Assembly (NCBI GenBank): GCA_903831165.1
Contig: CAIKWV010000216.1
Coordinates: forward strand, 1-6,911
DNA length: 6,911 nucleotides
Direction: 5' to 3'
Origin: an uncultured cyanobacterium
Lineage (GTDB): Bacteria > Cyanobacteriota > Cyanobacteriia > PCC-6307 > Cyanobiaceae
In this document: positions 502 through 5,882 of the stretch, piece by piece
Numbering within the stretch: position 1 is the stretch's first letter
Layout: each line of letters starts with the position of its first letter
Position numbers and translations under genes: made by a program
Notes under the pieces: generated by a model
Seen by the model: the letters and a program-made list of their open reading frames with translations, nothing else
The model's database searches: none
Told to the model about the DNA's origin: nothing

Positions 502-1725
502 TCAGGTCCCGGGAGGAATCAGCATCCAGGAGAAGGCGATGGCCGTGCCACTGAAGGCCACCACCACCAGGGGCCAGCTGTTGTCGAGGTCTTCCAGGCG
601 TTGTTGCAGCTTGGTCCGGTCGGGGCCTTCCTCCAGCGCCTCCATGTAGGCATAGCGGCGACCGATCCAGATCACCAGAATGAAGGCCACCAGTGTCACC
701 ACATAGGCCACCACATACACCTGATCGAGGAAGGTGAGGAATGGAAGAACAGGCAGTTCATCGCGATAGGTCTGCTGCAGGAACACCAATGTCAACAACA
801 CCGTGACCGGGATACTGGCCCGGGCGTCCTGTTCGTCGGGGCGCACCTTGAACACCAGCAGCACCATCGCCATCAGCACCGACAAGGGCAGCAGCAGGCG
901 CCAGAAGGAGGCCCAGGACGAAGTACCAAAGGAGCTCTCGAACAGGATCAGGCTGTAATCGCTCTCCGGCCCACCCAGGCCGAAGTTGCTGGCGTAGTGG
1001 TGGCGGTATTCGGCGATCGACCAACCCTGGTTGAGCCAGCCGATGATGCGCGCGTAGAGACCCATGCCGCTGTTGCGGATGTCCGGCTCCAGCCGCAACT
1101 GCAGATAGCCGAGTTCACCGTCGACATCGTCGAACTCAAGCGACAAGGGCAGACTGACGCTCATGAACGGATAATGGCGGAAACTGGCCTGATCGAGGTA
1201 ATAGCGGCCCCGATAGGTGAACAGCTGGTAATAGCTGCCATCGGCGAGACGTACCGGTGACGGATCCACCGGCTGCAGCAGCGGCGGCGCATCGGTGATC
1301 AGGGTGTTCAGCAACTTGAAGCGCTGATCAATTGCGGCACCCTTGGCATCGAGATAACTCTGCAACGGCTGCTCCCAGTGCAGCCAGACATACCCGCTTG
1401 AGGCATAGCTGGGGACGCTGAGATCAAGTTCGGACGCGGTGTTGGCATAGACACCCACTTGCACGTGGTGGGTCGCCGCCTCCAACGCCTCCTGATCGAC
1501 ACGGGCCTCGCTGTCGTTGAGCACATCGCCGCGCAGGGTGCTCCAGCCGCTGGGGGGCAGCTGCCGCGGATCGATGATCAGGGCCCGGGCGGAGGCGGAC
1601 AGGCGCAGGGCGTCGCGACTGCGCACCTGCGTGACATCGATCCGGGCGATGGCCATGATGGCCAGAATCGTCGCCAGCAGCACCGAGCCGATGGCAACGA
1701 GGTTCCAGCGTTTCTGCTTCCGCAC
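502..1725 (-). CDS. Pentameric ligand-gated ion channel (Cys-loop receptor superfamily)
   Basis: Predicted inner-membrane ligand-gated channel subunit of 407 aa. A positively charged start and hydrophobic stretch (about 8-26, possible cleavage after AIA at 25-27) give a signal peptide or anchor. After a ~60-residue extension comes a beta-rich periplasmic domain (about 88-270) with loop-D-like WLHWEQP (W117) and the Cys-loop equivalent FRHYPF (182-187). Four membrane helices follow: M1 about 274-294 with the conserved Pro280, M2 about 302-320, M3 about 333-357 and M4 about 385-403. ELP then LP in the M2-M3 loop and FLDQ opening M3 resemble the bacterial channel ELIC. The usual Asp and Gln after Y-P-F are Met188 and Val190. 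The start is GTG with GGGGGAA (1739-1733) upstream; the next ATG (Met24) would cut the hydrophobic segment. GC is visibly lower than in the downstream plus-strand genes. The family call is firm; ligand and ion selectivity are unknown. Confidence 0.85.
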
Positions 1726-1759
1726 CGGCAGGTTCCCCCAGGTCGGCCCGACGTTAAGG
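1726..1759. promoter_or_regulatory. 34-bp divergent gap between channel and binding-protein genes
   Basis: This gap separates two divergent GTG starts. On the minus strand it holds GGGGGAA (1739-1733), a plausible ribosome-binding site 7 nt before the channel start. On the plus strand TTAAGG abuts the binding-protein GTG and is too close for a normal Shine-Dalgarno. There is no room for two separate promoters, so each gene's promoter must lie at least partly inside the opposite gene, or one start is misplaced. Confidence 0.4.
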
Positions 1760-2917
1760 GTGCAGGGCTGGTTTGCCGTGCTCCTGCCCCTGCTCGGCTC
1801 CCTGACAGCGTCCCCGGCCGCGGCGGTCGCGGCGGTCCCGCAGACGGCGACACCGGCCGGCAGTGCCGAACTCGTGCTCGGCCAGTCGGCCCCTTTGAGC
1901 GGACCCTCCGCCCAGCTCGGGCGCGACTACCGCGAGGGAGCGCTGGCCTGGTTCGAGGAGGTGAACCGGCGCGGCGGCATTCACGGCCGCAAGCTGCGGC
2001 TGGTGAGCCTCGACGATCGCTACGAACCGGCCCTGACCCTGCGCAACACGCGCCAGCTGATCGGGAAGGAGCGGGCCTTCGCCCTGTTCGGCTACGTGGG
2101 CACGCCGACGGTGAAGGCGATCCTGCCGCTGGTGGAGCAGGCGCAGATCCCACTGGTGGCGCCCCTCACCGGCGCACGCCTGCTGCGGGAACCGTTCCGG
2201 CCGATGGTGTTCAACCTCAGGGCCAGCTACCAGGCGGAAATCGACCGGATCGTCGACGATCTGGTGCGAGCGGGCCGCCACCGCATCGCCGTGCTGCACC
2301 AGGAGGATGCCTTCGGTGAAGATGGCCTGCGCGCCACCCGCAGCGCCCTGGCCCGCCATGGCCTGCAGCCGGTGGCCATCGCCGGGGTGAAGCGCAACTC
2401 CACCGCCACCGAGGGGGCCGCACGGCAGGTGCACCAGGCTGATCCCAGCGCCGTGGTGATCATCAGCGCCTATGCCAGCTCGGCAGCCTTCAGCCGCAGC
2501 CTGCAGCGCCTGGGCAGCACGGCCCAACTGATGAACGTCTCCTTCGTGGGCACCGGCGGCCTGCAGGACTCGCTGCCGGGTGGACAGGCCAGCGGCATCG
2601 GCGTCAGCCAGGTGGTGCCCTTCCCCTGGAACCGGCGGGTGCCGGTGGTGGCGGAGTATTTGCGCCTGATGCGCCAGAAGCAGACCACGGCCCGCTACGG
2701 CTTCACGAGCCTGGAGGGATTCCTGGCGGCCCGGCTGATGACGGAGGGGCTGCAGAGGGCGGGGGCGAACCCGAGCCGCCAGGCGCTGGTGCGTGCTTTC
2801 GAGAGCATGCACCAGCTGGATCTGGGCGGCTACAAGCTCTCCCTGGGCCCGCGCGATCACCAGGCCAGCGACTTCGTCGACCTGACGTTCTTGAGCACCC
2901 AGCGCTGGGGACCCTGA
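1760..2917 (+). CDS. Periplasmic substrate-binding protein, Leu/Ile/Val type (PBP type 1)
   Basis: Predicted periplasmic solute-binding protein of 385 aa from the GTG at 1760. A hydrophobic N-terminus ending in ASPAAAVAA (about 17-25) looks like a Sec signal peptide, though without the usual basic residues. Mature motifs fit Peripla_BP_6: LGQSAPLSGPSAQLG opening lobe 1, then EVNRRGGIHGRKL, FGYVGTPTVKAILPLVEQ, a lobe-2 strand IAVLHQEDAFGEDGL, and near the end a helix TSLEGFLAARLMTEGLQRAG. Family members usually bind branched-chain or other amino acids, amides or urea and feed an ABC importer, but no permease or ATPase gene is adjacent. It is divergent from the ion-channel gene by 34 bp, which suggests a joint sensory role. 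An in-frame ATG at 1691 ([10 protein letters not shown]) would supply positive charges but overlaps the channel's 5' end by 35 bp. Family firm, ligand unknown, start uncertain. Confidence 0.85.
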   Translation: MQGWFAVLLPLLGSLTASPAAAVAAVPQTATPAGSAELVLGQSAPLSGPSAQLGRDYREGALAWFEEVNRRGGIHGRKLRLVSLDDRYEPALTLRNTRQLIGKERAFALFGYVGTPTVKAILPLVEQAQIPLVAPLTGARLLREPFRPMVFNLRASYQAEIDRIVDDLVRAGRHRIAVLHQEDAFGEDGLRATRSALARHGLQPVAIAGVKRNSTATEGAARQVHQADPSAVVIISAYASSAAFSRSLQRLGSTAQLMNVSFVGTGGLQDSLPGGQASGIGVSQVVPFPWNRRVPVVAEYLRLMRQKQTTARYGFTSLEGFLAARLMTEGLQRAGANPSRQALVRAFESMHQLDLGGYKLSLGPRDHQASDFVDLTFLSTQRWGP

Positions 2918-2960: not shown

Positions 2961-3094
2961 AGGAGTTTGCTGAAAAACCCGGCGAACTCAGCTGCAGTGC
3001 TCGCCACGAGATCGAGAAACCCAGTCGTGACTTGGGTTTTAATCAAGACCCGTGGTCGCGTCCCAGGGTGCGAGTTTTTTTCAGCAGGCTCTTA
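2961..3094. mobile_element. MITE-like or relic insertion-sequence element
   Basis: About 134 bp bounded by imperfect terminal inverted repeats: left GGAGTTTGCTGAAAAA (2962-2977), and right, read on the other strand, AGAGCCTGCTGAAAAAA (3092-3076). They share GAG, two differing bases, then TGCTGAAAAA. Ends of the type GAGCCTGCTGAAAAA are familiar from several DDE-transposase IS families. The bases just outside, TCAG on the left and TTAG on the right, could be a diverged 4-bp target duplication. The left tip also forms a subterminal hairpin (2963-2970 with 2982-2989). Inside is a hairpin AAACCCA/TGGGTTT (3017-3023, 3033-3039) followed by TTTTAAT, which may terminate transcription from the binding-protein gene 44 bp upstream. 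No transposase gene is present, so it is a non-autonomous element or a collapsed IS. Confidence 0.6.
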
Positions 3095-4470: not shown

Positions 4471-5235
4471 ATGGCCCAGCGGCACTGGCTCGATCCCCTG
4501 GCCCGCCAGCTGCTGATCGCCAGTGGCCAGCTGCCGCGGCCGCAGCGAGCGCCGGGCGAGCCGCCCCTGTTTCGCGGCGATGGGGCCGGGAACGGAGAGT
4601 CCCTGGAGCGGCCTGGGGATTCCGTCGCGGGGACAGGGCCAGCCGGCGAGCGGGCCGACGCCCGGGCCGAGGCGATTGAACGGGATCTGATGGCGCTGAA
4701 ACTGGCCCACGACCCCGGCCGGCGCCTCGGCAATGCCGAAGAGGTACGCCATGCCGCCGCCCTCGGCTGGCGCCTGGATGTCAACCGGGCCACCGCCGCC
4801 GACTGGCTACGGCTGCCCGGCTGCCGCAGCGACCAGGTGGATCTGCTGCTGCGGCTCCAGGCCGGCGGCGTGCAACTGAGCGGCCCGGAGGATCTGCAGC
4901 GGCTGCTGGCGCTGAGCGAGGCCGAGCTGCAGACCTGGCTGCCACTGCTGGAGTTCCGCTGGTACGGAACGGCTCCACCGGCCGCCAGCGCCTGCCCGGC
5001 GATCGCCGTCAACCAGGCCAGTGACCCGGAGCTGAACCAGCTGCCCGGCATCGACGCGGCGCTGCTGGGCCGGCTGCGGTACGAGCGCGCACGGCGCCCC
5101 TTCAGCGATCTGGCGGATCTGCAACAGCGCCTGCAGCTGAGTGCCGCCACCGTGGAGGCCTGGATCGGCCGGGTGGCCTTTCAGAGCGCCCCGGCCGGCC
5201 CGGTGCTGCCCCGGGCCCAACGCCCCGACCCATGA
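4471..5235 (+). CDS. Tandem helix-hairpin-helix (ComEA-like) protein
   Basis: A 254-aa protein with no signal peptide or membrane helix, so unlike exported ComEA it is probably cytoplasmic. It starts MAQRHWLDPLARQLL, followed by a Gly/Pro/Arg-rich low-complexity stretch (about 22-65). Two similar helix-hairpin-helix units follow: LDVNRATAADWLRLPGC (about 102-118) and IAVNQASDPELNQLPGID (about 178-195). Each has the VN.A...L..LPG pattern and a second half containing LSGPEDLQRL or FSDLADLQQRL. HhH units bind the DNA backbone without sequence specificity. The next gene, a GIY-YIG nuclease-like protein, overlaps it by ATGA, implying translational coupling and joint action. An in-frame ATG at 4417 would add 18 residues and overlap the regulator, but those codons include AGA, CCA and other low-GC choices unlike the body of the gene, so I prefer 4471. 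Precise function unknown. Confidence 0.8.
   Translation: MAQRHWLDPLARQLLIASGQLPRPQRAPGEPPLFRGDGAGNGESLERPGDSVAGTGPAGERADARAEAIERDLMALKLAHDPGRRLGNAEEVRHAAALGWRLDVNRATAADWLRLPGCRSDQVDLLLRLQAGGVQLSGPEDLQRLLALSEAELQTWLPLLEFRWYGTAPPAASACPAIAVNQASDPELNQLPGIDAALLGRLRYERARRPFSDLADLQQRLQLSAATVEAWIGRVAFQSAPAGPVLPRAQRPDP
4999..5006. repeat. HIP1 octamer (GCGATCGC)
   Basis: A single highly iterated palindrome, inside the extended form GGCGATCGCC (4998-5007), within the second HhH unit of the coding sequence. HIP1 is abundant in many cyanobacterial genomes and here supports the host assignment. Confidence 0.6.
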
Positions 5236-5882
5236 CCACACCGCCCGGCCGCCAGGGCGATCTGTTCGCGGCTGCCAGCACCGGCGCCGCTGGCCCCGGG
5301 CCCTTGCCCCCGCCGTTGCTGCGCCAGCAGCTGCTCCGCTGGCAGGAGCGCCTGCTGGCCCATCAGCAGCCCCTGTTCGCCCTGGCGGCCGCCGGTCCCG
5401 CCGCGGCCCTGGCCGCCGGGCCTAGCCAGGGCCTGTTGTTCCAGACCAGCGCCAACCCGACGGACGGGGGCAGCCCAGGCCATGATCGGGCCTCCAGCCT
5501 CAATCCCCTGGATCTGCAGGCCCAGAGCCTGACCTTCTGGCGTTGGCCCAGTGCCCCCCAGCAGGGTGCCGCCATCTATCTGGTGCTGGATCGCCCCACC
5601 GGCCTGCCCTCCCCCCTGCTGCTCTACGTGGGTGAGACCGGCTGCGCCGACCGCCGCTGGAAGGGTGATCACGACTGCAAGAGCTACCTGGCGGCCTACA
5701 GCGAGGCCCTGAGCCGGGCCGACCTGGCCACCAGCCTCAGCATCCGCTTCTGGAGCGATGTACCCAGCGACGGCCGCGGGCGCCGCCGCCTGGAACAGAC
5801 CCTGATCCGCCGCTGGCTGCCGCCGTTCAACAAGGAGACCCGCGAGCGCTGGGCCACGCCCTTCACCGCCGATCCCGGCTGA
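5232..5882 (+). CDS. GIY-YIG nuclease-like protein
   Basis: A 216-aa protein whose C-terminal half (about 112-205) fits the GIY-YIG endonuclease fold. AIYLVLD (114-120) is the GIY strand and LYVGET (131-136) the YIG strand. Arg141/Arg142 in ADRRWKGDHDC are candidates for the catalytic arginine, Glu188 in RRLEQTLIRRW for the metal-binding glutamate, and Asn200 in PPFNKETRERW for the conserved asparagine. The N-terminal half is low-complexity (Ala/Gly/Pro-rich) apart from a helix LLRQQLLRWQERLLAHQQPLF (20-residue core about 30-49) and a QGDLF peptide at 8-12 resembling a sliding-clamp-binding motif. GIY-YIG enzymes nick or cut DNA; members include UvrC and Slx1. The ATG overlaps the HhH gene's stop (ATGA), so the two proteins are probably made in balance and may act together. 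Activity is inferred from the motifs; the substrate is unknown. Confidence 0.8.
   Translation: MTTPPGRQGDLFAAASTGAAGPGPLPPPLLRQQLLRWQERLLAHQQPLFALAAAGPAAALAAGPSQGLLFQTSANPTDGGSPGHDRASSLNPLDLQAQSLTFWRWPSAPQQGAAIYLVLDRPTGLPSPLLLYVGETGCADRRWKGDHDCKSYLAAYSEALSRADLATSLSIRFWSDVPSDGRGRRRLEQTLIRRWLPPFNKETRERWATPFTADPG

Follow-up and report, generated by a model that had tools for sequence, protein, structure and literature searches.

A gene of the Pro-loop ligand-gated ion channel family conserved beside a periplasmic binding protein gene in Cyanobiaceae

Introduction

The first 6,911 nucleotides of contig CAIKWV010000216.1 (assembly GCA_903831165.1), from an uncultured cyanobacterium of the Cyanobiaceae, were analysed here as a whole and are referred to as the window. 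They encode a putative subunit of a pentameric ligand-gated ion channel (pLGIC), here called LG-A, and directly beside it, on the opposite strand, a periplasmic substrate-binding protein (SBP). Does the SBP detect a ligand on behalf of the channel? The natural roles of prokaryotic pLGICs are largely unexplained, and this channel clade brings along a candidate ligand detector, so that the natural ligand can be fished for with a soluble binding protein rather than guessed. We show by profile and predicted fold that LG-A is a pLGIC, and that its pairing with a protein of the type I periplasmic binding protein (PBP-I) fold is conserved across the family. We lean towards the reading that the SBP docks on the LG-A channel and gates or modulates its predicted pore.

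LG-A is a pLGIC of the Pro-loop type

The open reading frame (ORF) of LG-A occupies positions 502–1725 of the minus strand, starts with GTG and encodes 407 amino acids, uninterrupted up to its stop codon. Its single-chain model (mean predicted local distance difference test score, pLDDT, 88.0; predicted template modelling score, pTM, 0.80) consists of an N-terminal helix, a beta-rich domain and then four helices. The hydrophobic N-terminal helix (residues 2–28; 1642..1722, minus strand as all LG-A features) has an A-I-A/R site at its end and would be either a membrane anchor or a signal peptide. The extracellular (periplasmic) beta-sandwich domain of the model spans residues 82–267 (925..1482), the alignment with GLIC beginning at model residue 82. 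It is followed by M1 (residues 270–293; 847..918), the pore helix M2 (299–321; 763..831), M3 (332–363; 637..732) and M4 (368–402; 520..624). The family alignment and the profile alignment with ELIC place the Pro-loop, the equivalent of the Cys-loop, at residues 180–192 (1150..1188), with Y-P-F at residues 185–187. P186 and F187 of this loop, P280 in M1, P325 in the M2-M3 loop and D334, the aspartate of FLDQ, are identical in all 45 aligned family members. Every element of the layout listed in the initial annotation (helix, beta domain, Y-P-F, M1 proline, M2, LP loop, FLDQ and M4) is thus present.

Standard profiles do not name this gene. PF02932 scores 17.1 bits (cut-off 28.1), PF02931 is not listed, and the NCBIfam LIC model gives an E-value of 6.7e-7, yet only 28.4 bits (cut-off 280.2). 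The identity of LG-A was therefore decided by a family profile against solved structures together with a fold comparison. The family profile matches ELIC with E 5.5e-34 over positions 73–354, spanning both domains; with the single sequence E is 3.7e-5, over 237–359 only. The predicted fold of residues 82–405 is the same as that of GLIC and ELIC, at about 17% identity to GLIC. Leaving the gene unnamed, as Pfam and NCBIfam alone would have it, was overturned by these two lines of evidence.

LG-A accordingly has the sequence and predicted-fold features of the pLGIC superfamily: a beta-sandwich followed by four transmembrane helices, homology across both domains, and in P186 the loop-tip proline between beta6 and beta7, described as the most conserved pLGIC position (Jaiteh et al.; PMC4795631). 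Assignment to the pLGICs is supported by the family profile and the predicted fold. The initial annotation had proposed a Cys-loop-type ligand-gated channel, recognisable by the Neur_chan profiles and by a beta-sandwich with a four-helix bundle. The family membership and the fold were borne out; the profile check was carried by the family profile, with PF02932 below its cut-off and PF02931 unlisted. The Cys-loop label did not hold. There is no cysteine among the 407 residues, hence none of the disulphide of strict (animal) Cys-loop receptors, and we use Pro-loop instead.

Pore line and agonist pocket

M2 was numbered through the ELIC profile alignment, anchored on ELIC 7' = L238 (title of 6hjx) and 9' = L240. 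This gives D300 at -2', R302 at 0', P306 at 4', T308 at 6', L311 at 9' and F315 at 13'. Conservation among the 45 members is high: 42 have D or E at -2' and 42 have F at 13', the proline at 4' and the leucine at 9' recur in 43 each, and position 0' is R in 44 and K in the remaining one. A proline at 4' of M2 is unusual. This proline within the predicted M2 helix, and M188 at the usually acidic Pro-loop position, would suit a protein that has kept the pLGIC fold without conduction and now works in the membrane as a switch driven by ligand, or as a scaffold. We regard such a loss as very improbable, as the pore line (acid at -2', T at 6', L at 9') and the gating-loop prolines are strongly conserved. 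Cation-selective pLGICs are described as carrying a ring of acidic residues at the inner pore mouth (PMC9897478), and by analogy the pore of LG-A would pass cations.

By alignment, most of the agonist pocket of ELIC is kept. Among the positions compared were F19, Y175 and F188, which we take to be agonist positions of ELIC. The alignment places F19 on Y93, Y38 on Y112, E131 on E197, Y175 on Y244 and F188 on Y257, all invariant in the 19 LG-A members, so that by alignment alone five of six compared positions are kept; the sixth, F133, is replaced by D199. In the wider family, Y112 (1390..1392) is Y in 33/45 members (19/19 of the LG-A group) and E197 (1135..1137) is E in 42/45. Y38, E131 and F133 of ELIC have been described as direct ligand contacts (PMC9674596). 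Primary amines, cysteamine among them, and gamma-aminobutyric acid are reported to open ELIC, on which most amino acids tested have no effect (PMC3430861).

A conserved pairing with a type I periplasmic binding protein

The SBP gene (1760..2917, plus strand) starts with GTG and is the divergent neighbour of LG-A. The initial annotation dealt with the channel gene alone; this neighbour is its conserved companion and gives the strongest hint at what the channel does. Only 34 bp separate the two start codons (1726..1759). An alternative in-frame ATG at 1691 lies inside the 5' end of LG-A, and with this start the two genes would overlap at their 5' ends. A match to Peripla_BP_6 above the cut-off and a two-lobed fold place the product among the type I periplasmic binding proteins. 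Its C-terminal tail (2888..2914, plus strand) ends in W-G-P and is a candidate docking tail; the final block of the model, residues 381–385, has a mean pLDDT of 57. The W-x-P ending is found in 44/44 distinct channel-linked SBPs. Compared with the binding proteins of Leu/Ile/Val-type ATP-binding cassette (ABC) transporters (4kv7, 3lop, 4m88), the SBP has no linked permease, and its W-x-P tail lies beyond the aligned stretch, the profile ending at 373–376 of 381.

The pairing was tabulated over 400 genomes of the family, from the 77 best channel (LG) matches (E <= 4.4e-72) and 74 of the first 75 SBP matches. The channel matches take in partial ones; where a gene was split, in two cases, its second fragment was not counted, nor were weaker matches. 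One SBP fragment of 75 residues (G183) was left out. An SBP gene adjoins divergently at 53 of the 58 LG-A places (at least 51% identity) and at one of three places with 45–50% identity. Another type, LG-B (35–40% identity, 16 places), is convergent (tail-to-tail) with an SBP gene in seven cases, of which six belong to a single other genus, and unpaired in nine; in one of the seven (G364) the SBP belongs to an LG-A pair beside which the LG-B gene lies. Seen from the other side, 60 of the 74 SBP places adjoin an LG place, and nine of the 14 without one were fetched as loci, the other five being fragments or partial.

The genes flanking the pair vary between groups of loci, which indicates that channel and SBP travel as a unit. 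Two pairs stand in a row in each of two cultured strains, Cyanobium sp. FACHB-13342 (L037) and Synechococcus sp. CS-1330 (L039). The SBPs of these tandem loci are at a distance of 0.04–0.16 to the SBP of the same LG type elsewhere, versus 0.43–0.46 to the neighbouring copy, and the channels behave likewise. Channel and SBP distances correlate at 0.85 over 44 pairs and 0.88 over the 38 divergent ones, a part of which species kinship alone would give; the 44 pairs take in one pair with a UrtA-like protein (see below) and the mispaired LG-B of G364.

How the binding protein might act on the channel

In the reading we lean towards, five LG-A subunits would assemble in the plasma membrane into a pore that would pass cations. 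The SBP would catch a small molecule in the periplasm, close around it and present itself to the extracellular domain of the channel, possibly via the W-x-P tail. The level of ligand would then be turned into ion flux in place of uptake. An ELIC-like agonist pocket is retained in the channel, so the SBP could either pass an amine or amino acid on to it or serve as an allosteric cap. If the SBP does gate the channel, this would be a two-component ligand-gated channel with sensing and pore in separate proteins, a logic comparable to that of the PBP-like domains within one chain of animal glutamate receptors.

Several observations speak against docking. Five of the 58 LG-A places have no SBP. A contig edge truncates only one of these, which shows that the channel can persist without an SBP. 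Outside the family, none of the 11 loci fetched, from among 18 matching genomes, has this SBP gene beside the channel; local searches of these loci for the decarboxylase, major facilitator superfamily (MFS) and Bestrophin-like neighbours described below were equally negative. In the pocket, D199 stands in place of ELIC F133, and most amino acids fail to open ELIC (PMC3430861). LG-A has M188 where an acidic residue after P-F has been called apparently universal (PMC549065), D or E being shown for 11 of the 45 members.

Divergent neighbours can, moreover, share regulation without touching. This leads to the alternative that the channel, like ELIC and GLIC, responds to its ligand without a helper, while the SBP delivers the same nutrient to an ABC transporter encoded elsewhere and the shared divergent region does no more than co-regulate the two. 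The ELIC-like pocket, the closely spaced start codons and the permeases of the right family encoded elsewhere in 10/10 genomes checked, one of which the SBP could serve, are all consistent with it. We nevertheless consider it unlikely. In none of these ten genomes is a BPD_transp_2 permease linked to the SBP gene, the nearest being at least 59 kb away from start to start, and the SBP has stayed with the channel when the pair was duplicated and when its order changed from divergent to convergent.

A sister clade of SBPs bears on the question from another side. At the loci of this clade, which lack a pLGIC gene (L099–L107), a Bestrophin-like gene follows the SBP gene in 9/9 fetched cases, with PF14023 above its cut-off in 7/7 proteins scanned, and a PstS-like gene is often next as well. 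Such company could mean that the SBP clade is an adaptor for several membrane proteins, which in the window acts mainly as a sensor on gene expression or another receptor, its link to the channel being secondary. To us this seems improbable, because the Bestrophin-like protein is by name also a candidate channel, and the common denominator is an SBP with a candidate membrane channel. The sister SBPs end in [FY]-I-[HN] (8/8). The two types of tail thus follow the two SBP clades, and the W-x-P tail may be mere ancestry, a further point against a docking role. The Bestrophin-like pairing of the sister clade and the decarboxylase block at a paralog, described below, offer independent tests of the idea that the SBP acts on the channel.

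Comparison with known systems

GLIC (Gloeobacter) and ELIC (Dickeya/Erwinia) share with LG-A the fold, the Pro-loop proline, the prolines of M1 and of the M2-M3 loop, and the acid at -2'. LG-A differs from both in about 80 extra residues before the domain, including the N-terminal helix, in the proline at 4', in lacking an acid after P-F, and in its conserved, separately encoded SBP partner.

Tasneem et al. (PMC549065) describe alpha-proteobacterial PBP-I-LGIC fusion proteins, as well as stand-alone PBP-II and Cache neighbours, and propose for such proteins a role in concentrating ligands for the channel or in sensing them. The fusions resemble the present case in joining a type I PBP to a pLGIC, with the same proposed logic of multiple ligand-binding modules. 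Here, in contrast, there are two ORFs. The SBP has a gene of its own, divergent or convergent, and as a soluble protein apart from the channel this sensor can come and go. The stand-alone neighbours, as far as that account describes them, are of the PBP-II and Cache types and not PBP-I. DeCLIC likewise has a periplasmic accessory module on a pLGIC core, but its jelly-roll lobes are part of the same chain and calcium is the known regulator (PMC9897478). To these the present case adds a PBP-I partner that stands alone and is retained throughout a large family, in more than one gene order, and that has a sister clade beside another membrane protein. Searches of open-licence papers gave us no account of a pLGIC paired with a stand-alone PBP-I gene, none of a decarboxylase-pLGIC block and none of Cyanobium pLGICs.

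Distribution of the channels

Homologs of LG-A (E <= 0.001) occur in 122/400 genomes of the Cyanobiaceae, in 89/251 of the good genomes and in 19/59 genera, and several of the 400 carry two to five channel matches each. Such recurrence makes the ORF more than a chance occurrence. The statement in the initial annotation that such channels are sporadic in bacteria thus does not apply within this family. Its picocyanobacterium-like character of the genome agrees with the nearest named relatives, which are titled Cyanobium, Synechococcus or Cyanobacteria. In a draw across the phylum the family profile matched 36/339 genomes (E <= 1e-8). A large protein database gave 412 matches to LG-A (E <= 0.001), and the 120 listed were all without a precomputed Pfam domain. 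On the 45 family members, Pfam (E <= 0.01) matched PF02931 in two and PF02932 in 16. The clade is common in picocyanobacteria yet missed by standard annotation and Pfam. A genome search with PF02931 gave no match in the genome of the window and none in 14 control genomes, so the blank in the former is no proof of absence. No tblastn match to LG-A was found in 72,556 plasmid records.

The genome of the window contains a second, distant pLGIC-like ORF (G000:C76:1077-1649; L079) with 24% identity. A further pLGIC type, at L091:307-1275 and L084:16598-17731, is visible to standard models (L091: NF033918, E 1.5e-32; TIGR00860, E 3.1e-31). One record titled Bifidobacterium breve (L033, CALPNT020000043.1) carries the present cyanobacterial locus at 88% identity and is probably a mislabelled metagenome-assembled genome. 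DnaJ and ALAD genes flanking channels of about 30% identity (L069, L074, L075) were considered and set aside as a conserved place, not a likely partner.

A decarboxylase block and a UrtA-like partner

In related ARRANGEMENTS (a), a pyridoxal phosphate-dependent decarboxylase gene is found in 9/400 family genomes, all nine of which carry LG-B. With 16 LG-B genomes among the 400, the chance of this overlap is 1.7e-14 (hypergeometric, kinship ignored). The order decarboxylase, membrane protein, MFS protein, LG-B is found on one contig in 8/9, and is split over two contig ends in G105. At L059:2023-7238, and also in L140, L141 and L143, the block consists of a predicted histidine decarboxylase, a sensor-like membrane protein, an MFS protein and the pLGIC paralog. 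The one decarboxylase scanned (L059:2023-3348) scores 366.2 bits with NF002748, histidine decarboxylase, against a cut-off of 305. Among solved structures a serine decarboxylase (8.3e-72) is nearer than a histidine decarboxylase (2.9e-59), and the substrate is therefore left as histidine or serine. By eye the middle protein looked Cache-like, a naming that was dropped; its best structure match has an E-value of only 0.42 and the single sequence has no Pfam match, and it is named only sensor-like.

The block lies between LG-A and the tyrosyl-tRNA-synthetase-type gene (tyrS) in G262, on the SBP side in G364, and beside decayed LG-A and SBP genes in G348. It is absent from the window, where LG-A abuts tyrS, and no such decarboxylase was found in the window's own genome, which is 64% complete. 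Taken together, an amine-making decarboxylase, an MFS exporter, a sensor-like protein and a pLGIC, beside a second pLGIC with a detachable SBP, might form a synapse-like signalling cassette. Picocyanobacteria would then make, release and sense a small amine by way of channels of the Cys-loop family, and the SBP module would be exchangeable between pLGIC and Bestrophin-like partners. We offer this as a speculation that is doubtful at present.

SBP and LG-A have decayed to fragments at L057:2136-2892 and L063:545-1301, the adjoining decarboxylase block being intact in L063. In L031 a tyrS-like fragment (9317-9520; 46% identity to residues 51–126 of the window's tyrS piece) lies between LG-A and the decarboxylase block, possibly as a trace of the insertion of the block.

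In related ARRANGEMENTS (b), a third channel clade adjoins a UrtA-like protein, by coordinates in 10 of 16 chosen genomes; the two genes share a strand in nine of them and converge in the tenth. Five of the nine are shown by the fetched loci L083, L084, L085, L145 and L146, where the UrtA-like gene looks lipoprotein-like and lies directly downstream of a pLGIC of about 30% identity. The protein scores 443.2 bits and so misses the UrtA cut-off (492.75). Several of these genomes have another match to UrtA elsewhere, a more distant one, which points to a paralog as the partner.

Flanking genes of the window

The tyrS gene lies downstream of LG-A. Beyond the SBP gene follow genes for a DUF1825 protein, a LuxR-type regulator, a helix-hairpin-helix (HHH) protein and an M17 peptidase. 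Between SBP and DUF1825, positions 2963-3091 resemble a miniature inverted-repeat transposable element, with inverted ends of 15 nt that are 87% complementary and 99 nt apart; a second copy was not found in the same incomplete (64%) genome. An ORF of 216 amino acids at 5232-5882, which has no Pfam or NCBIfam match, is kept beside the HHH gene in relatives.
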